This document shows positions 2,947 to 20,262 of a stretch of DNA of 20,262 bases, one piece after another (position 1 is the first letter of the stretch; every line of letters starts with the position of its first letter). The notes beneath the pieces were generated by a model, which saw only the letters and a program-made list of their open reading frames with translations, had not been told where the DNA came from and did no database searches. The stretch lies in the IMG/VR virus record IMGVR_UViG_3300025141_001007, positions 1-20,262 of that record; one strand, written 5' to 3'. The position numbers and the translations under genes are program-made. Origin of the DNA: a virus.

Positions 2947-3255
2947 TTACTCTGGATCTTTGACCAAGAAATAAGGCTTCTCAGCATCCAGATCCCCGCC
3001 GATAACTGCTTGATCAGCAATACCAGCCGCTACAAGCGCGAACTGCACCTGAGTCTGCGCTTCCTGACTAGCCGCAAGCAGTTGCTTAAACAAATCCGCC
3101 TGTTGTACAGACAGATAAACCCTATTCCCATCCTTTTCATTCCAAGGAAGGCCGCTTTGTTGCGTCTCGCCGTTAGTTACCGGCTCTTGTGACGCTTGCG
3201 ACTCTTTCTTTGAGGTTTGCTGTTTGTGTTTCGACTGATGCGAGGCGTTCGCCAT
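2947..3255 (-). CDS. Small conserved phage protein with an overprinted N-terminus (102 aa)
   Basis: The C-terminal two thirds look like a normal small folded protein (YLSVQQADLFKQLLAAS, then VQFALVAAGI and GGDLDAEKPYFLV). The first 27 residues are almost entirely Lys, Gln, Ser, Glu and His, and are encoded in DNA that also encodes the end of the upstream 75-aa membrane protein in another frame. No later start codon is apparent, and the ATG at 3255 has an AAGG ribosome binding site nine bases upstream, so the overlap looks real. It ends six bases before the gp10-like gene. I recall proteins ending in a similar QVQFALxAAGI pattern in marine phages; function unknown. Confidence 0.7.
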   Translation of the reverse strand: MANASHQSKHKQQTSKKESQASQEPVTNGETQQSGLPWNEKDGNRVYLSVQQADLFKQLLAASQEAQTQVQFALVAAGIADQAVIGGDLDAEKPYFLVKDPE

Positions 3256-3400
3256 GGGTATCTACCTTCTCGTCTAAACGGTTAACAATGCGCTCTATCT
3301 GAGCGAGGGACTGCTTGGCCCCATTCAAGCCTGCCTTCACGCCGCCATAGGCCGCGCCAGCGGCGGCAGGAATTGCGAGCAGGGACAGTAATGTAGCCAT
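3173..3400 (-). CDS. Small membrane protein with a coiled coil, holin- or XhlA-like (75 aa)
   Basis: An N-terminal hydrophobic segment (LLSLLAIPAAAGAAYGGV) is followed by a heptad-like amphipathic helix (IERIVNRLDEKVDTHGERL, then VETQTANLKERV). One membrane helix plus a coiled coil is the layout of XhlA-type haemolysin/holin accessory proteins and of some spanin-like proteins. I chose the ATG at 3400 because GGAG lies six bases upstream; an ATG at 3412 would place that GGAG inside the gene. With 3400 the start sits one base past the TGA of the upstream gene. The last 27 codons overlap the start of the next gene. A role in lysis is inference; no endolysin is visible nearby. Confidence 0.75.
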   Translation of the reverse strand: MATLLSLLAIPAAAGAAYGGVKAGLNGAKQSLAQIERIVNRLDEKVDTHGERLASVETQTANLKERVASVTRAGN

Positions 3401-3401
3401 T

Positions 3402-3755
3402 TCAAGCTCCATTGTCCTCGTCCCACGGCATCGTGCGATTCGTTTCGCGTGTGGGGGAAACTTGCTCTTCTATATTCGCGTCTAATCGCAACTTCATTTC
3501 CGCGAGTTCGTCTTCGCCAATCTGCTCCTCTACCCATCCTTCAACATCGGATTCAGTGAGGTCAGCGTATTCGATCCACGAATCACCTTCCTCCCAGACA
3601 ATAGAAGATGTGCCGATATTCTGTGCCGTGTGCCCATCACCGTCATCAGCATTATACCGCCAATGGACCGTGTAAACGATATCCGTGTGATCCTCTGCAT
3701 CAGGCCCCAATTCTAAGTCGATAGCGTAAAACTGCCATGAATATGAGATAGCCAT
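3402..3755 (-). CDS. Small acidic conserved phage protein (117 aa)
   Basis: The N-terminal half is beta-rich (YSWQFYAIDLE, DIVYTVHWRYNA, then a short G-rich turn), and the C-terminal half is a strongly acidic helix (WVEEQIGEDELAEMKLRLD) ending in a Pro-Trp tail. This 'tVHWrY' sandwich with a helical tail resembles a domain of unknown function that I recall next to tail-fibre genes in marine phages, including cyanophages. Its ATG shares a base with the stop of the tail-fibre gene (TAATG), so it is probably translated together with the fibre. That makes a fibre chaperone or fibre-attached protein a reasonable but untested idea. Confidence 0.75.
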   Translation of the reverse strand: MAISYSWQFYAIDLELGPDAEDHTDIVYTVHWRYNADDGDGHTAQNIGTSSIVWEEGDSWIEYADLTESDVEGWVEEQIGEDELAEMKLRLDANIEEQVSPTRETNRTMPWDEDNGA

Positions 3756-6142
3756 TATTCTTCTTCCTCTGGTTTCTCAGGCTCGACAATCACATGGCCG
3801 TCATCATCAGTCCAATTGGTGTCTAGTATATGTGGATCGCAGCGTTCTGCTACAACCATCCAGCTTACAGTGTCATCGGAGTCAGAATCAGCACAGGTAA
3901 TCGAAAGCGTATTTCCCTCGACTGCACCCCTGACCGCATCCCAGCCAGAATCATTCTGAATGAAACACTGGGCATCACGGCACAGAACTTCAAAGGTGCC
4001 TTCACTCATGCCAGCGGCATCGTCCAGATCCACCTGTACCCATCCAGAAACAAGATCAGTGCTACCTCTGTAAATTAGGTCAGCTTGCGGGCCTTCAATG
4101 AAGCTGTGAACTAGGTGGTGGGTATCTTTTTTATCTGGTAGTGGATGGTCGATTTTGAATGAGCCAGAGCCTTTTGATAAGGCACCAGTACAATGAAAAG
4201 TGCCAGCGACTTCTAGCTTGTACGATGGAGAACTATCACCGATACCGACCCGATCATTGGCCTTGTCCATATAAATCAAGCCGCCACTGAGGCTCAAGTC
4301 AGTGTAGTGGCTGTTCGTTCTGTCGTAGCCGTAGATGCTCCACTTGGTATCTGTCCCAGCCTCAAAGTGAAGCACGTTTTCCAAGCCATTCGGGCCGTTG
4401 GAAAGATTGAATTCCTTACTCAGGTTGGCACCGATACCGATTTTACCGTCCGACAGAATCGTCATCCTAGTCGTTGGTGACCCTGACCCGTCAGCACTAG
4501 TGTTGAACGTCAACCTTCCCGGCGTATCATTCTCACCGGGGGTGCCGTCTATATAGGCAATGATGGAAGCCGCCGCATTACCCCGATCAACACCATCTGC
4601 GGCTACAAACATTATTGAGCCAAGAACATCATCGTCTTGGACGATTGTGTCAGAATTAACCGCTGTACCTCTGGACTTACCTAAAAACAGGTAAGGTCCA
4701 CCAGCACCATTCTCGTTTCTGAACGCAGATAAACCAGCGTCAGAGCCAGTGGTTTCAACTTGAAGTTTAGGAGTTAATGTGTAGAGGACATCGGGTGTAA
4801 CAGTTCCAAGAGTGAGAACACCAGATGTATTTAGAACGAATTTTGCGCTGGAGGCACTGCTTCCAGTTCCCATAAAGAATGGAGTGCCATCGCCCCAGTC
4901 ATCGCTATCCTGCATCCCGATTGTCCAAGTGCTACTACCAGCAGTCTGGAAATTGACCTTCGCACCCTCAGTAGTCGCTGACCTGTCGATGTCTATAGAC
5001 GCAGTAGAAGATGAATCAACAATGACCTTAGCCGCCGCCTTGGCGACTTCGATGTTACCAGCGGCAGTGAGGGCACCACCGACACCCAGAGTGCTATCGA
5101 ACTGTACCGCCCCAGCATCCACCCAGAGTGCGTAGTTGGTCGCTCCTGATGCCGCTGTAGCGTCTGAGATATAAACGGTGGCGGCGTTCGTTACTGTTGC
5201 ACTTCCACCAGTGATTGTCGGCGGAAGGAACCTCGCCCCATTCAACATGGCGTGGGTGCCACTTCCCGCTTCAACGATAGTCCCCGTGGAGACCATCATC
5301 GCACCTATCTCATCTGCATCCAGATTCAAGGTGGAGTTGATTTGGAACCCGATATTCGCCGTGGTTGAGCCTTGGATATAAAACTGTCGAGCAGAACTCA
5401 CTGCCCCACCGAACGTATGAGGTCCGACACCAGAAACAATTAAGTCTTGAGTAATCGTGGTATCTTGATTCTCGTCTATTGTAATGGCTGGTGTTGTACC
5501 AACAGTTGAACCAAGGCCGATTTTCAGATCATCATCTGTATCGTCCAGTCCAACGTAATAGTCCTGTGCGGCACCATCGAATACGATTTTGGTATCTTCG
5601 GCTCCAGCATCACCAATAGTGAGTGTCGGAGTCGTTCCGGTCATCGTGATTCCAGCGGCGGCAGTAACAGCACCAGTAAGCGTACTCGCACCAGCCACGG
5701 TCAGGGTGCTACTCAACTCCAGATCAGCGAACGCATCCAGAACAGCCGCGCCAGCACCAGCACCATCAGTGAAGATTGCCGCGACCTTACCATTACCGAT
5801 TGTAATGTTGGCCCCGGAACCCTGACTTATGATGATGTTCTGAGAACCACTTGTAGCGTTCTCAACGATCCAGAACTTGTTAACGGTATTTGGTAACAGA
5901 GAGATGGTACACGCTGAATCCAGTGTGCCCGTATACTTCATGTATATGGCACGACCTTCGTCAGCCGCACCGTCTGCTATGGTAGTGGTATGAGTGTCGG
6001 CATTGGTTGTAATGGATTCCGTGCCGGAACCGAACGCATCTGCTATAAGTTCTAGGTTCGTATTAGTGGAAGTACCCCAAGTACCCGATTCGGCACCTGT
6101 AGCAATTTCCTTCAGTCTCAGATTGTTGACATATGTAGCCAT
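3755..6142 (-). CDS. Large tail fibre protein (795 aa)
   Basis: The N-terminus (VNNLRLKEIATGAESGTWGT, followed by NLELIADAFG) is a widespread marine-phage fibre/baseplate attachment start. It is followed by a low-complexity, Thr/Ala/Gly-rich beta body with repeated 'STLTVAGASTLTGAV' and 'VGGALTAAGNIEV' strands typical of trimeric fibres. Around residue 640 a 'RVGIGDSSPSYKLEVAGTF' segment leads into a C-terminal domain (about 661-795) with FKIDHPLP, HHLVHSFIEGPQADLIYRG and a closing DTNWTDDDG. I recall this C-terminal domain from cyanophage and other marine fibres; it is not the S74 self-cleaving chaperone, whose Ser/Lys motif I do not see. The start has AGGA seven bases upstream. The protein very probably contacts the host surface. 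Confidence 0.85.
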   Translation of the reverse strand: MATYVNNLRLKEIATGAESGTWGTSTNTNLELIADAFGSGTESITTNADTHTTTIADGAADEGRAIYMKYTGTLDSACTISLLPNTVNKFWIVENATSGSQNIIISQGSGANITIGNGKVAAIFTDGAGAGAAVLDAFADLELSSTLTVAGASTLTGAVTAAAGITMTGTTPTLTIGDAGAEDTKIVFDGAAQDYYVGLDDTDDDLKIGLGSTVGTTPAITIDENQDTTITQDLIVSGVGPHTFGGAVSSARQFYIQGSTTANIGFQINSTLNLDADEIGAMMVSTGTIVEAGSGTHAMLNGARFLPPTITGGSATVTNAATVYISDATAASGATNYALWVDAGAVQFDSTLGVGGALTAAGNIEVAKAAAKVIVDSSSTASIDIDRSATTEGAKVNFQTAGSSTWTIGMQDSDDWGDGTPFFMGTGSSASSAKFVLNTSGVLTLGTVTPDVLYTLTPKLQVETTGSDAGLSAFRNENGAGGPYLFLGKSRGTAVNSDTIVQDDDVLGSIMFVAADGVDRGNAAASIIAYIDGTPGENDTPGRLTFNTSADGSGSPTTRMTILSDGKIGIGANLSKEFNLSNGPNGLENVLHFEAGTDTKWSIYGYDRTNSHYTDLSLSGGLIYMDKANDRVGIGDSSPSYKLEVAGTFHCTGALSKGSGSFKIDHPLPDKKDTHHLVHSFIEGPQADLIYRGSTDLVSGWVQVDLDDAAGMSEGTFEVLCRDAQCFIQNDSGWDAVRGAVEGNTLSITCADSDSDDTVSWMVVAERCDPHILDTNWTDDDGHVIVEPEKPEEEE

Positions 6143-6151
6143 GTTCTATTC

Positions 6152-6580
6152 CTATAGCGTCCAAGTCCAAAGATGTATCAAGATAGGGCCAAGGGTATCC
6201 ATGATACCATCAATCCCCCAACCGTAAGGCAGATCCCATTTTCCCGGCGTACCTTCCTTCGCATGGTGACGCCAGTCATAGACCTCCCTCGTTCCGTAAA
6301 GTGCAAGCGCGATACCTGATCCAATCCGTGCGCCCGTAACCACACTATCCGGCAGAATTACCGCCCAAAGTACAACGTAGAGCGTGATCAATGCCGCGAT
6401 CAGCGCGTGATGTACCCATGTTGTCCATTCCTTACCACTCTTGAGAAAAGCAGGAAGACGAGGCTGTAGATACTTATTTGCCCACACATTGAATGTGGCA
6501 AAGTCATCTAGCAGTGCCGCCCACAGTATCACTGGTAAGTGAAGTGCAAGAACAAACCATGCAGTGCTACTTAGGATCAT
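6152..6580 (-). CDS. Polytopic small membrane protein, function unknown (142 aa)
   Basis: The protein has a long hydrophobic N-terminal segment (STAWFVLALHLPVILWAALL), a second one (ALIAALITLYVVLWAVIL, about residues 59-76) followed directly by a shorter Gly/Ala-rich segment (about 84-96), and a hydrophobic, Trp-containing C-terminus. That is three or four membrane passes. I chose the ATG at 6580 because it overlaps the TGA of the upstream repeat gene as ATGA; the alternative TTG at 6598 would add six residues. Size and topology would fit a holin, but it also resembles uncharacterised membrane proteins carried by marine phages. No catalytic motif is visible. Confidence 0.75.
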   Translation of the reverse strand: MILSSTAWFVLALHLPVILWAALLDDFATFNVWANKYLQPRLPAFLKSGKEWTTWVHHALIAALITLYVVLWAVILPDSVVTGARIGSGIALALYGTREVYDWRHHAKEGTPGKWDLPYGWGIDGIMDTLGPILIHLWTWTL

Positions 6581-7275
6581 GTAATTATAGTCTCCCAACT
6601 AGGCGTCTGTGCGTCTGACAGATCCGACCAACTTGGTGTCTGTGAGTCGCTGACTGCCGCCCAATTTGGTGTTTGTGAGTCATCTATCTCCGCCCAAACA
6701 AGTACATTTCCTACTTCTCCTGTAGCGGCTAGTCCCGTTACGTCGATACTTACATCTACCGTCGTTGTAACGCTTCCTAACGCGCTCGTTCCTGCCAGCC
6801 CTGTAACAGTGACATTTCCATCTCCCGTCACCGTTACCGAACTCAATCCACCAGTTGCGGCAACTCCGGTTGGGCTAACATTTGCATCACCCGTTACCGT
6901 TACCGTACCAAGTGCGCTTGTCCCTGCCAGTCCCGTGACTGAGAGATTCGCATCACCTGTTACAGTTACTGAGCCAACTGCGCCCGTTCCCGCTAGTCCC
7001 GTCAGCGTAACATTTGCCGTACCTGTTACGGTAACGCTTCCTATACCGCCCGTAGCCGCCAAACCAGTGACAGTTACGTTCGCATCTCCGGTAGCTGTTA
7101 CGGTTCCTACCGCCCCAGTACCAGCAATTCCTGTTACAGTTACATTCGCATCACCTGTTACAGTGACACTTCCTACCGCTCCTGTTGCCGCTAGACCCGT
7201 TACATCAACGGGAACTGGCTGGCCCCAAGGCCCGGAACCCCATGTTGAGCGGCCCCAACCAGTTACATTTGCCAT
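6577..7275 (-). CDS. Beta-repeat virion protein with 22-residue and 11-residue repeats (232 aa)
   Basis: Three parts are visible. Residues 1-22 carry a Trp/Gly motif (GWGRSTWGSGPWGQP). Residues 23-194 are eight head-to-tail copies of a 22-residue unit of the type VTVTGLAATGGIGSVTVTG, the last one truncated. Residues 199-231 are three exact-length 11-residue units (DSQTPNWAAVS, DSQTPSWSDLS, DAQTPSWETII). The repeat has two short beta strands per unit and would build a solenoid or elongated fibre. It lies between small structural genes and the membrane protein/tail fibre genes, so a surface fibre or spike component is likely. No enzyme motif is present. The gene starts one base after the preceding stop. 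Repeat number may vary between relatives. Confidence 0.8.
   Translation of the reverse strand: MANVTGWGRSTWGSGPWGQPVPVDVTGLAATGAVGSVTVTGDANVTVTGIAGTGAVGTVTATGDANVTVTGLAATGGIGSVTVTGTANVTLTGLAGTGAVGSVTVTGDANLSVTGLAGTSALGTVTVTGDANVSPTGVAATGGLSSVTVTGDGNVTVTGLAGTSALGSVTTTVDVSIDVTGLAATGEVGNVLVWAEIDDSQTPNWAAVSDSQTPSWSDLSDAQTPSWETIIT
6583..6681 (-). repeat. Three tandem 33-bp units encoding an 11-residue Gln-Thr-Pro-Trp repeat
   Basis: Each unit encodes D-[SA]-Q-T-P-[NS]-W followed by four variable residues. Period is exactly 33 bp, at the C-terminus of the 232-aa repeat protein. I recall similar QTPNW repeats in other marine phage fibre proteins; their function is unknown to me. Confidence 0.85.
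6694..7209 (-). repeat. Eight tandem 66-bp units encoding a 22-residue beta repeat
   Basis: The period is exactly 22 codons with no insertions between units. Conserved positions are T-G-[LIV]-A, a Gly five or six residues later, then S/T-V-T-V-T-G-D-A-N. Codons differ between copies at many third positions, so the array is not a recent amplification and has probably been under protein-level selection. The last copy is cut to 18 residues. Confidence 0.9.
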
Positions 7276-14700: not shown

Positions 14701-14889
14701 CTAAAATTCTCTAATTCGATCTTCCAAATCTATTACTTCTCGTTCTGCCCATGCTAATCCTTCGATAATACCGCACATCTTGCGATATTCTTCCATATTT
14801 TTTGCAGAACCAAGGGAAAGCAGATCGGCTATTTCGTTCATCTGTTGTCTTAATTTCTTTCTGAGCAATGATAAAGGATCATCACTCAT
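14701..14889 (-). CDS. Small helical protein after the portal gene (62 aa)
   Basis: An all-helical 62-residue protein: DPLSLLRKKLRQQMNEIADL, a short Gly/Ser turn, then 'YRKMCGIIEGLAWAEREVID' and a charged end. The 'YxxxxGxIEGLAxAERE' pattern is one I recall in short proteins just downstream of portal genes in marine phages. It overlaps the portal stop by 8 bases (ATGAGTGA), so it is co-translated with the portal, and AAGG lies five bases before its start. An assembly helper or minor head protein is plausible. No function is known to me. Confidence 0.75.
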   Translation of the reverse strand: MSDDPLSLLRKKLRQQMNEIADLLSLGSAKNMEEYRKMCGIIEGLAWAEREVIDLEDRIREF

Positions 14890-17491
14890 CCTTACCTTCC
14901 TCTTCTTGCTGCATCTTTAGATTAAGCTTCACGCCTTCAATTTCCTGTTCAGCATCAAACCTTTCTTGCTCTAGATTTAATTTCATACCCTCAATTTCTT
15001 TTTCAGCATTAAACTCTTCTTGATCTAGTTGAGTCTTGAGTAACATCTCTTCACGTTCTTGTTCCAGCGCAGCAGTATCAGAGCGTTCCTTCGCTGCAAG
15101 TTTCTCAGCCTCAAGTTGCTGTTTTGCCTGATCAGCTTGCTGTGTCGCCATAAGTCTCTGTTGTTCAAGCTGAGATCTGAGTTGATCAGACTGCTGCGTA
15201 GCCGCAAGCTTCTGTTGTTCCAACTGCGACTTGGCCTGATCGGCTTGTGATTTCCGCTGAACATCCTGCTGCCTAATCTGAAGTTCCTTCTCACGCTGCT
15301 GCACGATAGGATCTTTCTGCATCTTCGCGTCTTTCTCTGCCTTGGCCTTGGCTTTCTTTTTGCCCAGCATCTGTTCAGCCGCATCGGCAACAAGTGTACT
15401 AAGCCGCTTTTCAATATCTTCTGGCAGAGGCTGATTAGTCGGCGGAAGCGGAATACCAAGCTCTTCTTCGATTTGATCGCGGAATATAAATGCCAGGTGT
15501 TCACGAATATGCGAATCCAATGCAGCAACTATCGCACCACCCATTTTGTTATTCTGCATCTGCTCTTTAATCTGCGGATCATTTTTAAGTACCATATGCA
15601 CTTTCATATGTGCTTCATGGTCTTGGTACTCAAATGCCTTCACAGGTTTCAATGTAAGAAGATCCTCGTTTTCACTAACCGGATCTGTAGGATGAATTTC
15701 ATCCGGCATTGGAACAATTTTCTCCGCATTCGGAATACCGATCAACTCCATCATTTCACGATGAAGAAGCGGCATATCGTAGAGACCAGGCGATTGCTGT
15801 GCTAATTGCATTGCCGCTTGGTATTGCATGATCCGTTGTGCCATAGTGGACGCATTGGGGTCCGAAACAGGCACAACATCAATACGATCATCAAAATCTT
15901 CAAGTTTGATACCCTCCCCTTCTTCGGTCTCATAAGGATAATCCGGTGATGTATAGTCATGGATCACCTCAGAAAGAATCTTATACTCCTGTTTCAGGCT
16001 GGCGTGAATTCTAGCCTGAATAGCAGACTGTACTTTCATTGCACGTTCCATGATTGCAAGAGTGGTCCCAACGGGAGCCTCTTGATTCATATCTGCTACT
16101 TTGAGGTCGGCCATCGACGCAAAGCGTCGGCCTTCCTCCACGATGTTACCCAGAAGTTGATATAAGACCGAAGAAGGTTCTTTATAAGGAAGGAAGGTGA
16201 TATTGTCCCTGATAACGCCGCCCGGAACATCGACATCCCTAAATTCTCCCGGCATGATGGGCGTATCATCGCCCTTGATTCTCAACCCACGGGTTTTCAA
16301 TCCCCCAGGCAAGTTGGACAAAGTGCCCGCATCAACGAGTTGACGCAGCAGACTCGTCGCTGATTTCGCGAGTCCACCGATCATATGTATCAATCCAAGG
16401 TTATAGAACCCGATCCCAGGAACGTATCCGTAGTGGACGAAATGTTGTTTCTTTATTCGATGTGGATCGTCTTCGGCCCAGTTCCTGTAAATCGACAGAA
16501 TCGTGGAACTACTTTTGTCGATGGTAACGACATAAGGCAGTGCAACTCCATCGGGATCTTCAAACCCTGGTACATCAATGTCACAATGCATTTCAAGTAG
16601 TTGGTGCCGTTCGTTATCATCCCACGAAGGACTGACGCCACCAATCTCGTTGAACTTGCTTGTGATCGGATTGTCTTCGATATGCGAAGTAGTGAGTTCC
16701 ACATCACGATAAAAGCCACTGACTTGAAGTTTTCTTACCTGATTAGTACTACGGTTCATGACATGGGTATAGCGTTCCGCATGCTGTAGCTCAGATTCAT
16801 TATATGACACAACAAAATCCTCCGCCGGAACAAACATCGAAGTCGGTCTGCCCAACGAAGGATCAAAGTAGATTTTACGGAATGCCGAACCAGCAAGCGG
16901 TAGACTGAACAGAAGCTTTTCGGTTTCAGACCGATATTCGGTCATCACTTCGATAAGCTGATAGTTCATATATTCTTGAACACGCCGTGCCTGCTTCTCA
17001 CGATCATCGGTAACAACACCCCAGATCTGTGTTTTGACCGGACCCTTGGCTGGCATGATTTCTTGAATCGTCTGCGCCTGGAACCGTACCACGGCTTCGG
17101 AAAGCATCGGATGGAATACCCCGCAGGCTCCAGCCCACGGGGTAGTACGGTCTTCGATCTCCAGACCTAGCTGGTCGAGACCTTCCTTGTACGTTTCTTC
17201 CCAATCCGAACGGCTGCTCTTGTCGGAATCGAACATCCCGATACAGTCGAGTGCCAGGGTACGAAGTTCGTCATCATCAACATACTCAGCCAGATTGGAA
17301 TCGAATTCTTCTGCTCCGGCACCCATGAGATCTGCCATGGGATCGAAATCAATCTCAACGCCACCGTCTTCCAATTCCGTAATCAAGGAATCGCCAATAG
17401 GCATTTCCTCTTCTGCAACCATAAGCCCTTCAGGACTCATCTCGAAATCGTCTTGATCGAAAAGCCCGTTAAGGGGTTTATCTATAGGCAT
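14882..17491 (-). CDS. Portal protein, P22-like, with long C-terminal helical repeat tail (869 aa)
   Basis: The body (about residues 80-700) has portal-type features: 'WEETYKEGLDQLGLEIEDRT', 'TPWAGACGVFHPMLSEAVVR', a wing/stem region with 'PLAGSAFRKIYFDPSLGRP' and 'VPAEDFVVSYNESELQHAER', and 'AKSATSLLRQLVDAGTLSNL' followed by 'APVGTTLAIMERAMKVQSAI'. P22 gp1 is 725 aa, so this protein is about 140 longer. The excess is a Gln/Glu/Lys-rich helix (711-869) with three 18-residue repeats (748-801) and two further 18-residue repeats (823-858). Known role: the dodecameric ring at one vertex through which terminase drives DNA. The acidic N-terminal 80 residues look disordered. It lies directly downstream of the terminase gene, the usual order. 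Confidence 0.85.
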   Translation of the reverse strand: MPIDKPLNGLFDQDDFEMSPEGLMVAEEEMPIGDSLITELEDGGVEIDFDPMADLMGAGAEEFDSNLAEYVDDDELRTLALDCIGMFDSDKSSRSDWEETYKEGLDQLGLEIEDRTTPWAGACGVFHPMLSEAVVRFQAQTIQEIMPAKGPVKTQIWGVVTDDREKQARRVQEYMNYQLIEVMTEYRSETEKLLFSLPLAGSAFRKIYFDPSLGRPTSMFVPAEDFVVSYNESELQHAERYTHVMNRSTNQVRKLQVSGFYRDVELTTSHIEDNPITSKFNEIGGVSPSWDDNERHQLLEMHCDIDVPGFEDPDGVALPYVVTIDKSSSTILSIYRNWAEDDPHRIKKQHFVHYGYVPGIGFYNLGLIHMIGGLAKSATSLLRQLVDAGTLSNLPGGLKTRGLRIKGDDTPIMPGEFRDVDVPGGVIRDNITFLPYKEPSSVLYQLLGNIVEEGRRFASMADLKVADMNQEAPVGTTLAIMERAMKVQSAIQARIHASLKQEYKILSEVIHDYTSPDYPYETEEGEGIKLEDFDDRIDVVPVSDPNASTMAQRIMQYQAAMQLAQQSPGLYDMPLLHREMMELIGIPNAEKIVPMPDEIHPTDPVSENEDLLTLKPVKAFEYQDHEAHMKVHMVLKNDPQIKEQMQNNKMGGAIVAALDSHIREHLAFIFRDQIEEELGIPLPPTNQPLPEDIEKRLSTLVADAAEQMLGKKKAKAKAEKDAKMQKDPIVQQREKELQIRQQDVQRKSQADQAKSQLEQQKLAATQQSDQLRSQLEQQRLMATQQADQAKQQLEAEKLAAKERSDTAALEQEREEMLLKTQLDQEEFNAEKEIEGMKLNLEQERFDAEQEIEGVKLNLKMQQEEEGKDE
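14918..15025 (-). repeat. Two tandem 54-bp units encoding a second 18-residue repeat in the portal tail
   Basis: The units are DQEEFNAEKEIEGMKLNL and EQERFDAEQEIEGVKLNL. Period is the same as the upstream array but the sequence differs, with an EIEG[MV]KLNL core. Confidence 0.9.
15089..15250 (-). repeat. Three tandem 54-bp units encoding 18-residue helical repeats in the portal tail
   Basis: The units are SQADQAKSQLEQQKLAAT, QQSDQLRSQLEQQRLMAT and QQADQAKQQLEAEKLAAK. Eighteen residues is exactly five alpha-helical turns at 3.6 residues per turn, so equivalent residues lie on the same face along a straight helix. Confidence 0.9.
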
Positions 17492-17550: not shown

Positions 17551-19044
17551 TCAATAATAGTCTGCTTTGCGCCCTGGAATCAACTCGTCCATCGGATAGT
17601 CGCTATTCATACTGATAAAACCACCCTGCCTGAATCTTATAAGTGCTTGCGTAGACGAATCTACAAGATCATCGTGGTCGCCGTAAGGAAATGCCGCAAA
17701 CTGTTCTATCACTTCTTCGGCCCAACGCTTTTTCGGAGCATAAACGTGCCCACTGAAAAAGAGATCCGATACAGCATTCACCCTGGCAACCTTGTCCTTG
17801 CCCCTACCAGGCGTGTATTCCGCGACAGGGATTCCAATTCTGCGAAGCTCGAAAATCAAAGGACTACCCGCCGCCTTCGCTTCCACGATAAAAGCATCGG
17901 GTTCGTATTCCTTGTACATCTCATACGCACGGACCTTCAGATCGGGAAACTCTAGACGTTCCTGCAACGCATCCAACAAAACAATTTTTGCATGACCATC
18001 TTCCGTATAGAAAACGCCCCAGGTCGTGCAAGCACTGTAATCGGCTGTTTCCTTCGCAAGAAATGCCGTATCCCAGGATTGGATCACAAACTCGCAGTTC
18101 GGCGGATCTTTTTCCGTCCATTCCTTCCACCACTCCCGTTTGATGAGTGCGCCTTCTTCGGAAGTCGGATCTTGCTGATACTGAGCACTCCACTTCGGAA
18201 CTGGAAGCTCTGCTCTCAGGGATTCAAGCTGATCCAGGGGCCAGAACCCAGGCCATAGCGGTTTACCGCTTGGAAGGATCGCAGGCAGTTCGATAATTTC
18301 CCACTCGTCAGAACCGCCTCTTTCGATAGATGCCTTCAGAATGCTGCCCGTTAGATCCTTGGTTGACCAACGAGTCATCACCAAACAGATAGCCCCACCA
18401 GGCTGCAACCTCTGGCGAGGACCGGAAGTGTACCACTCGTAAGTTTTGTTGTAGACATCGGGATCGTTCAAGGCCGCTTCCTGCTCAGAATGCGGATCAT
18501 CCACAATCAGGATATCCGCACCCTTACCAGTTACCGCACCACCAACTCCGATAGCGAAGTAGTCTCCTTCCTTGTTCGTGTTCCAGCGTCCAGCAGCTTT
18601 CGAGTCCACACTAAGCGCGACACCCGGAAATATCTTGGAATAGTCGTTAGATCCAACAAGGTTACGAACTTTACGTCCGAAACCAACAGCAAGTTCCGCT
18701 GTATGAGCAGTTTGAATTACCTTACGATCAGGAAACTTCCCCAGATACCATGCAGGAAAGAGATGTGAAGCAAACTCAGACTTGGTGTGACGCGGAGGCA
18801 TGTTGATGATAAGCCGCTTCAATTCACCACTCGCTATACGGTTAAACGCATCTGCCATGACACGGTGATGATTACCTTCGATAAACGCAGGCCAGACCTC
18901 TTTGACAAATGCCAGAAAGTCATCATTAGATTCAGCGCGTACACGGGCATCCGCCAACTCATCCAGAAGAATGAGTATCTCGCGCTTCTCACCAGGGGGC
19001 AGCGTATCAAGCTGCCCAACTACAGTTTCGATATCCACTTTCAA
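17551..19044 (-). CDS. terL: Terminase large subunit (497 aa)
   Basis: The two terminase domains are clear. The ATPase has a Walker A-type MPPRHTKS at 82-89, Walker B ILIVDD at 178-183 followed by PHSE, and a coupling motif VMTRWS at 222-227. The RNase H-like nuclease has D325 (QSWDTAF), E388 (VEAKAAG) and the D456/D458/D459 cluster (GDHDDLVDS). All key residues are present. It cuts concatemeric DNA and pumps it through the portal. It is first in the minus-strand operon. The start is not ATG: the frame is closed by TAA two codons before a TTG at 19044, and a GTG at 19038 is the only near alternative; neither has a good ribosome binding site. No small terminase gene is visible. Confidence 0.95.
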   Translation of the reverse strand: MKVDIETVVGQLDTLPPGEKREILILLDELADARVRAESNDDFLAFVKEVWPAFIEGNHHRVMADAFNRIASGELKRLIINMPPRHTKSEFASHLFPAWYLGKFPDRKVIQTAHTAELAVGFGRKVRNLVGSNDYSKIFPGVALSVDSKAAGRWNTNKEGDYFAIGVGGAVTGKGADILIVDDPHSEQEAALNDPDVYNKTYEWYTSGPRQRLQPGGAICLVMTRWSTKDLTGSILKASIERGGSDEWEIIELPAILPSGKPLWPGFWPLDQLESLRAELPVPKWSAQYQQDPTSEEGALIKREWWKEWTEKDPPNCEFVIQSWDTAFLAKETADYSACTTWGVFYTEDGHAKIVLLDALQERLEFPDLKVRAYEMYKEYEPDAFIVEAKAAGSPLIFELRRIGIPVAEYTPGRGKDKVARVNAVSDLFFSGHVYAPKKRWAEEVIEQFAAFPYGDHDDLVDSSTQALIRFRQGGFISMNSDYPMDELIPGRKADYY

Positions 19045-19197
19045 AAATTACACAAAAATTTTTCTCCAGAAAAGAGGGGGGCCTATTCCTGAGAAAAAAT
19101 CCCCCTTACTAGTACTAGTATATACTAGCTAGTAAGAACTAGACCAGATACATACTAAAAAACAAAAAACCTAGATTAAACCAGCTAGATAGAATCT
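19045..19197. promoter_or_regulatory. AT-rich divergent intergenic region with a CTAG cluster
   Basis: The region separates the minus-strand terminase operon from a plus-strand gene, so promoters for both directions are expected. It contains CTAG at 19109, 19115, 19125, 19129, 19139, 19171 and 19185, and a perfect 14-bp palindrome CTAGTATATACTAG at 19115-19128 that holds a TATACT (one base from TATAAT) on each strand. I find no convincing -35 box at the right distance. Two runs of six A around 19157-19169 and a G6/C5 pair (19075-19080 with 19101-19105) are the other notable parts. Promoter function is inference. Confidence 0.45.
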
Positions 19198-19560: not shown

Positions 19561-19608
19561 AACGTGCAAAACTGTGTTTATTGCTCCCGGGTGCGCCGCC
19601 GGAAAAAA

Positions 19609-19629
19609 GGGGGGGCCGGGGGGGCGGGG
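19609..19629 (+). other. G-quadruplex-type G tract
   Basis: Runs of 7, 7 and 4 G are separated by CC and C, directly after six A. The runs are long enough to supply four G-triplets with one- or two-base loops on the plus strand. The same pattern is also what a two-colour sequencing artefact or bad join would leave. Confidence 0.6.
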
Positions 19630-19699
19630 TCAGACTCCTCCGGCCATTCGGAAAAACTGGGAGCCAGTTTCGACACTCGACCGGACCAGCTTCACCGGT

Positions 19700-19729
19700 C
19701 GCCGGTGGTCAGTTCGCCGGTACGCCGGT
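19700..19729 (+). repeat. Three direct CGCCGGT repeats
   Basis: CGCCGGT starts at 19700, 19715 and 19723, immediately before the first palindrome. Two more CCGG tetramers lie at 19681 and 19695. The cluster resembles iteron- or operator-type arrays, but copies are short and spacing is uneven (15 and 8 bases). Confidence 0.5.
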
Positions 19730-19749
19730 CTAACCCTCATGAGGGTTAG
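19730..19749. promoter_or_regulatory. Perfect 20-bp palindrome, copy 1
   Basis: Sequence CTAACCCTCATGAGGGTTAG, perfectly self-complementary, sharing the 16-bp core AACCCTCATGAGGGTT with a second palindrome 318 bases on. As RNA it could fold to an 8-bp stem with a CAUG loop. An operator for a dimeric repressor is the simplest reading. The central ATG opens a 15-codon frame (MRVSAEKVTSYRVD) of doubtful reality. Confidence 0.6.
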
Positions 19750-19840
19750 TGCTGAAAAGGTCACGTCGTATCGAGTCGATTAGGGGTATCAGGAAGCCGT
19801 TAAAAAAAGCTTCAAGTCGGTCCTTGATTCGATTAAATTT

Positions 19841-19934
19841 CCTGTGTAGTTCAGTTGCTTGCCCGACCGCCTCGCGGGGTCCGGTTGACCCCAGGCTCGT
19901 AAGAGTCGGTCGAGCTTCCGAACTACGGGACAGG
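19841..19934 (+). ncRNA. Candidate structured RNA with nested stems
   Basis: The outer stem pairs CCTGT (841-845) with ACAGG (930-934) and GTAGTTC (846-852) with GAACTAC (920-926), leaving a GGG bulge (last three digits; add 19000). Inside it CGACCG (864-869) pairs with CGGTCG (907-912). The apical arm pairs GGGGTC (876-881) with GACCCC (887-892) around CGGTT, and GCCT (869-872) with AGGC (893-896) across a CGC bulge; position 869 can serve only one of the last two stems. The nesting is unlikely by chance but strand and function are unknown. No tRNA features are present. Confidence 0.4.
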
Positions 19935-20047
19935 CTGATTGACATACTTGCTGACGGACTTCACTGGCCCGCTCATTCTCTGCTAGGAGCGGCGGACCAG
20001 AGGCCAGCAAACCAAGGACTCAGATCAGGGTGCTATCACACGCTGAG

Positions 20048-20069
20048 GGGAACCCTCATGAGGGTTCCC
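20048..20069. promoter_or_regulatory. Perfect 22-bp palindrome, copy 2, over a start codon
   Basis: The core AACCCTCATGAGGGTT (20051-20066) is flanked by GGG and CCC, giving 22 bp of perfect symmetry. The central ATG (20058) is the start of the candidate 23-aa gene. As RNA it could form a 9-bp stem with CAUG as tetraloop, exposing or hiding the start codon. It could equally be a DNA operator, the pair with copy 1 then allowing looping. Confidence 0.6.
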
Positions 20070-20129
20070 GCACTGATCAACTTGATCGGGAAGAAGCTCA
20101 AAGCCGCCAAGGAGCGGCTGAAATTATGA
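20058..20129 (+). CDS. Candidate 23-residue cationic amphipathic peptide
   Basis: The ATG lies in the centre of the second palindrome, with GAGGGG about seven bases upstream as a possible ribosome binding site. The peptide (MRVPALINLIGKKLKAAKER followed by LKL) has a hydrophobic N-terminal half and a Lys/Arg-rich helical second half. Its TGA overlaps the ATG of the next gene (ATGA), the junction style used across the phage operon. That overlap is the best evidence for translation. It could be a leader peptide coupling expression of the downstream gene, or a membrane-active peptide. It is also the end of a longer open frame reaching back to 19749, whose first part does not look like protein. 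Confidence 0.4.
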   Translation: MRVPALINLIGKKLKAAKERLKL

Positions 20130-20262
20130 GCACGATTTCATTCCCAGAAGTACCCGCGAAGGACGTAGGACTAGTTGACGCCGTAGCCGCAAGACTGACT
20201 GGCGTCGGATCGAATGTTGCCAAGGTTAAGGACCTAGGCCCAGAGGTTACAGACGCGAGCAA
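20126..20262 (+). CDS. 5' part of a plus-strand gene cut by the right edge (at least 45 aa)
   Basis: The frame opens with ATG overlapping the preceding TGA and stays open to the edge: MSTISFPEVPAKDVGLVDAV, then AARLTGVGSNVAKVKDLGPE. The composition (Val, Ala, Gly, Asp, Lys) is ordinary for a soluble protein, unlike the frames just upstream. There is no close ribosome binding site other than a weak GGAG about 11 bases back, which fits translational coupling. Too little is visible to name the product. Confidence 0.6.
   Translation, partial: MSTISFPEVPAKDVGLVDAVAARLTGVGSNVAKVKDLGPEVTDAS

Follow-up and report, generated by a model that had tools for sequence, protein, structure and literature searches.

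A 20,262-bp stretch of viral DNA (hereafter the window) carries, close to its right end, two perfect palindromes with a common core. What do these palindromes do, and what reads them? The preliminary description offered two answers, a pair of operators for a dimeric repressor or RNA hairpins presenting AUG in a tetraloop as a translation switch.

The two palindromes of the window

The window is part of the genome of a tailed phage; its structural genes all lie on the minus strand, including the head genes left of the portal gene. Its right edge is the beginning of the early arm, which is continued in the related contig L003. The features on which the argument turns are as follows.

14882-17491, minus strand: portal
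17551-19044, minus strand: terminase large subunit
19730-19749, no strand: dyad A, a 20-bp perfect palindrome, CTAACCCTCATGAGGGTTAG
19750-20047, plus strand: noncoding leader between dyads A and B (319 bp core to core)
20048-20069, no strand: dyad B, a 22-bp perfect palindrome, GGGAACCCTCATGAGGGTTCCC
20129-20262, plus strand: start (44 codons) of the cassette gene, preceded by AGGAG and complete in L003 as 3223-4257 (344 aa)

Two further observations concern the structural arm. A protein encoded at 6577-7275 (minus strand) is built of near-repeats of VTGLAGTGAVGSVTVTGDANVT. A second, conserved palindrome, TATACTAGTACTAGTATA, lies ~80-90 bp 5' of the large terminase gene in ~20 relatives (L013-L029, L041-L044, L085), with ACTAGACTAGTCTAGT or AGTCTAGTACTAGACT in its place in other relatives; the window has a degenerate CTAG-rich form of it at 19105-19130, directly before the large terminase start.

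Dyads A and B share the 16-bp core AACCCTCATGAGGGTT at 19732-19747 and 20051-20066, exactly as first described and far above chance: allowing up to three mismatches, the 20,262 bp contain two occurrences of the core where shuffles predict 0.03, no shuffle contained two, and the structural genes of the window hold no copy. Both sites recur at the same 319-bp spacing in L003 and L004, which come from other metagenomes, were assembled independently and are 99.3% identical to the window around both sites; the palindromes are therefore not the assembly artefact that had been considered. Single, non-dispersed occurrences of the 16-mer in L005, L006 and L007 were treated as chance, several such matches being expected, by our estimate, for a collection of that size.

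That symmetry itself is selected, as the preliminary description proposed from the flanks of the two cores, is well supported, and one of these flanks differs symmetrically in related contigs. In L003 and L004 the right-hand site reads GGAAACCCTCATGAGGGTTTCC, with 20050 G>A and 20067 C>T relative to the window at mirror positions about the centre of dyad B. We estimate the chance of such a mirrored pair at ~1-2%, but because the sequence around it has diverged locally, with 12 differences in 75 nt, this single compensatory pair is supportive rather than conclusive, backing selected symmetry without settling it. The L003 leader is identical to that of the window as far as 20049 and diverged from there to ~20124.

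Dyad A, the outermost copy of a dispersed set, lies upstream of the cassette gene in a noncoding stretch, and dyads of different sequence occupy the syntenic position in L009 (4586) and L012 (2837). Dyad B lies 59 nt upstream of the cassette-gene start. The surrounding ~570 nt (19561-20128), which precede the cassette gene, are probably noncoding and G/C-rich, with long G runs at ~19605-19628. Neither an Rfam family nor a tRNA was recognised in the leader at 19750-20047, which also gave no sigma70-like promoter or terminator; near the window's own two dyads no promoter was recognised either. The open reading frames described as starting at the central ATGs are real but incidental, since both dyads have CATG at their centre; the left one has 14 codons and the right one 23 with an overlapping ATGA, ending earlier in L003.

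Private dyad sets across the clade

In L003 the 344-aa cassette gene is followed by the small terminase gene (terS) on the opposite strand and then by small early genes. Seven exact dyads and a decayed eighth are spread over this early arm, so that the operator reading of the preliminary description is well supported while the set proves much larger than a pair. The exact copies, all intergenic or at gene junctions, are distributed as follows.

Two dyads: 5' of the cassette gene
Two dyads: in the convergent gap 3' of terS
One dyad: upstream of early gene D
Two dyads: at early-gene junctions, with AACCTATAGGAGG and then a start codon downstream

Relatives retrieved by terminase were searched de novo for inverted repeats in multiple copies, which uncovered dispersed dyads of other sequence in ~65 related contigs (some of them near-duplicates). 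These sister dyads are 13-17 bp long and present in about 3-18 copies per phage (17-21 for ACTAATWATTAGT). Their versions include, not exhaustively, ATCTTACATGTAAGAT, WTCTTTCRYGAAAGAW, GGGGAAAATTTCCCC, GTGGGATTTTTTCCCAC, TGGTAAATTACCA, AAGTTTARTTAAACTT, CAAAAAAGTTTTTTG, CAGAAAAATTTCTG and GGCAAAAAATTTTTGCC. When the initial loci were Markov-shuffled, dyad clusters never exceeded two. Sister dyads occupy the same, syntenic places as the L003 dyads, and at least 10 different specificities are found at syntenic sites within the clade. On long contigs each dyad is confined to one arm (10/10 copies inside ~4 kb of a 58-kb contig, and 7/7 inside 2.5 kb of a 42-kb contig) and is private, with zero copies in any other phage searched. 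Directly 3' of terS, between dyads, some contigs also have direct-repeat arrays with units of 22-31 bp that contain TCGATYCC (L129 8567-8683, L138 8499-8628, L145 4781-4933, L156 4178-4386); these are candidate packaging or TerS-binding iterons.

The clade is marine and podovirus-like. Its nearest cultured relatives by terminase (54-58% TerL identity) are pelagiphages HTVC027P and HTVC023P and phages DSL-LC04 and 023Pt_psg01, and no dispersed dyads were found in these four; a published account of related HTVC023P-type pelagiphages mentions neither palindromes nor promoters. Since no integrase (PF00589) was found in 16 long incomplete contigs and no ParA in 15, and bacterial genome contigs held no close relative of these phages, lysogeny in the clade is unproven.

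The cassette gene and other candidate readers

Each dyad-bearing phage has one hypervariable, dyad-flanked cassette gene encoding 250-345 aa, and no such gene was found in ten dyad-less relatives. The preliminary description had suggested looking for a helix-turn-helix gene just beyond the right edge; the best candidate regulator does begin there, at 20129, though no helix-turn-helix (HTH) or other DNA-binding fold is recognisable in it. The cassette protein matched nothing in Pfam, PHROGs, the PDB (sequence/profile search) or BFVD. The model is mostly helical with a beta hairpin (mean pLDDT 87), and Foldseek searches of cassette models returned no significant match. Homology between the cassette families of different dyad classes is demonstrable only in part: profile comparison united the CTTTC, CTTACA and AAGTTT classes (probability ~96%) and not the remaining ones, and the window gave no match to the profile of another class. 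As no relative of the window/L003 protein was found other than itself, the case for it as candidate cognate DNA-binding protein comes from its position and from comparison with its sisters. The cassette proteins are possibly a new DNA-binding family. L135 encodes two paralogous cassette genes (103-723 and 1740-2390) on either side of terS with dyads nearby, a pair reminiscent of paired regulators sharing the same operators.

When cassette proteins were clustered blind by BLASTP, the clusters coincided almost perfectly with the dyad classes (CTTTC 9/9, GGGGAA 7/7, AAGTTT 5/5, CARAAA 5/5, CTTACA 3/3). Two other products of the early arm compete for the role of reader: the dyads might bind TerS, in autoregulation or packaging, or the gene D product, the cassette gene merely travelling along. 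In raw correlation with dyad similarity, TerS similarity ranks first (0.62), and terS is flanked by dyads on both sides. Gene D encodes small early proteins (L003 5033-5464, L009 2327-2626, L041 7400-7744) whose N-terminus is modelled with confidence as three helices and whose tail is disordered; it is the first gene of the early operon, 3' of the main early promoter, and had neither a database match nor a significant Foldseek match for its model.

Because dyad similarity also follows terminase phylogeny, pairs of phages in which these genes dissociate are decisive. L135 and L144, whose TerS proteins are identical, match at ~88-93% in the flank downstream and again past the cassette, but they have unrelated cassette genes, and each of the three dyads lying between terS and cassette has switched. 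Between L129 and L134/L131, the flanks of four dyads are ~95% identical, the cassette proteins ~80% identical, and every one of the four dyads has gone from AAAAATTCCGAATTTTT to AAWAAATCCTATGTKTTTT. In both L135/L144 and L129/L134 the dyad bases changed at the same positions inside conserved flanks. L129 and L136 combine identical TerS and a related D-locus gene with strongly diverged cassettes and different dyads; L143 and L144 combine a similar gene D with unrelated cassettes and different dyads, and gene D is likewise similar in L142 and L143 although the dyads switch. Automatic gene D picks were wrong or doubtful at L135, L156, L109 and L127, and the pairs depending on them were left out of this evidence.

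Statistical comparisons gave a less direct answer. Within groups of similar TerS, dyad similarity was 0.90 with related cassettes against 0.67 otherwise (restricted permutation, p=0.0008), but the same permutation was significant for gene D and TerS too, so that the case for the cassette rests on the dissociating pairs. A rank-based Mantel test alone is not decisive either, because cassette similarity saturates and TerS carries phylogeny. Of the two halves of TerS, the C-terminal one follows the dyad more closely than the HTH one, which is what phylogeny predicts. One exception to the cassette pattern was seen: L077 and L103 have near-identical dyads and no detectable cassette similarity. Gene D, which we initially favoured from the comparison of L070 with L082, was rejected as reader for being a single homologous family across most dyad classes, and TerS was rejected on the identical-TerS pairs with different dyads (L135/L144, L129/L136). 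Overall, we regard it as unlikely that either protein, rather than the cassette product, reads the dyads.

Placement of the dyads and a proposed circuit

In 41 phages with 257 dyads between them, 154 dyads are followed within 55 nt by a Shine-Dalgarno sequence and start codon (60%, against 22% of random positions); they lie upstream of the Shine-Dalgarno sequence and at a median 19 nt from the start. A TTGACA-N16-18-TANNNT promoter was recognised upstream of 35 of these 154 (23%, against 1.6% in the null). The sigma70-like promoters most often end 29-36 nt before the dyad, which places the dyad near +25; in L003, for instance, TTGACT-N17-TATCTT stands at 4950-4978 and the dyad starts at 5010. 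The dyads in the convergent gap 3' of terS are not promoter-proximal.

This placement bears on the remaining alternatives. The dyads might serve DNA maintenance, as parS-like partition sites, sites of condensation or replication initiation, or packaging marks. parS and KorB operators are palindromes of 12-16 bp in several copies per replicon, similar to the dyads in size and copy number, and a ParB-like gene stands between the large terminase and portal genes in some relatives (L012 4972-5886, L018 11521-12429, L016 5019-5927). However, the window and the dyad-bearing contigs L003 and L009 lack this gene, the 15 long contigs yielded no ParA, and the dyads differ from parS and KorB sites in being private to each phage and in lying at promoters and start codons, where regulatory sites lie; we consider a maintenance function improbable.

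Slightly less probable still are hairpins in mRNA leaders acting as a translation switch, processing site or mRNA stabiliser. The dyads do lie in transcribed leaders directly 5' of Shine-Dalgarno sequences, and G/C-rich classes, including that of the window, fold at -7 to -13 kcal/mol, but the many A/T-only dyads at the same positions reach only ~-1 to -6 kcal/mol. Sister phages have dyads of odd length, giving a one-base loop, or centred on CGTG/CACG without an ATG; neither ATG, loop nor mini-ORF is conserved, the last not even in L003, and the AUG-presenting tetraloop of the preliminary description is not supported. In the version carried by L134, A/T arms enclose an asymmetric core, and both orientations occur, which also speaks against an RNA structure, and we hold this reading to be distinctly improbable.

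Selfish or gene-converted REP-like palindromic repeats, homogenised by copying and devoid of a regulatory role, would account for copies that are often identical within a phage and for their concerted change. Yet the same-position changes inside conserved flanks (L135/L144 and L129/L134), the co-occurrence with the cassette gene and the placement at promoters and start codons make this very improbable. Promoters of a phage-encoded single-subunit RNA polymerase are scarcely credible: the dyads are dispersed, phage-specific and upstream of genes, and the half-site AACCCTCA resembles the T3 promoter, but they are palindromic, their spacing is wrong for T3, sister dyads are unlike any such promoter, and recognisable sigma70 promoters stand upstream of dyads. 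A search for the RNA_pol family found none, with a search control that was also silent.

We consider it probable, then, that the palindromes are operators of a phage-specific circuit, read by a dimeric, autoregulated cassette protein that acts as a stoperator-like roadblock. In this model the cassette protein would bind the dyads as a dimer, and its own gene would probably be controlled through the dyads that flank it. As a dyad near +25 implies that polymerase binding is not simply blocked, the protein, once bound, would interfere with escape or elongation, and copies between genes would work likewise; bound just downstream of early promoters and between genes, it may form a roadblock after initiation that turns down the early operons and the cassette gene itself. 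Its biological role might be early shut-off, or competition between co-infecting phages.

Several described systems resemble this one in part. L5/Cluster A stoperators are many short, phage-specific sites in short intergenic spaces and near promoters, with a consensus that varies between related phages in step with the regulator and a proposed role in stopping elongation (PMC9283540, PMC6550527). The dyads share with them the use of one short site in multiple copies (about 3-18 per phage), and placement at ~+25 and between genes would be compatible with an L5-like elongation halt. L5 stoperators, however, are asymmetric 13-bp sites in one orientation, bound by the monomeric HTH repressor of temperate phages (PMC9283540, PMC6550527). 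The dyads are perfect and hence without orientation, no N-terminal HTH or stoperator domain like those of the L5 repressor is recognisable in the cassette protein, and the clade's long contigs gave no integrase.

Bacillus prophage SPbeta has ~10 dispersed 15-bp sites (SPBRE) in promoter regions, and their repressor MrpR, which maintains lysogeny, has a tyrosine-recombinase fold (PMC10516654). Dispersed sites at promoters and an unusual phage protein as reader (here a candidate) are common to both systems, whereas the cassette model has no such Foldseek match and PF00589 is missing from the 16 long contigs. In Cluster K mycobacteriophages, SAS repeats of unknown function lie just 5' of start codons in the non-structural arm, and the ESAS are inverted repeats with one consensus per genome (PMC3203893). 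The dyads likewise precede start codons in a non-structural arm; unlike the SAS, an asymmetric sequence that overlaps the ribosome-binding site and hardly varies among phages (PMC3203893), they end upstream of the Shine-Dalgarno sequence and differ wholly between phages. The system would work like stoperators and SPBRE/MrpR, yet departs from what defines them: asymmetric sites, an HTH and a recombinase fold.

Diversity of regulators and operators of the immunity type is known mainly from temperate phages. Here such diversity stands at syntenic sites in a clade with no detected integrase, tied to one uncharacterised protein locus. We tentatively suggest, with rather less confidence than for the operator reading, that an undescribed, fast-diversifying DNA-binding family of no known fold and its private palindromic operators form a system of swappable specificity in apparently virulent marine phages. 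If so, the protein gene would be exchanged as a cassette with every dispersed operator changing along, and a single locus would hold a large series of orthogonal regulator-operator pairs. The natural cassette swaps are ready-made mutant comparisons in which the co-evolution of an operator set and its reader is directly testable. The system would also supply a rich set of orthogonal DNA-binding proteins, and perhaps a mechanism by which phages compete in the ocean.
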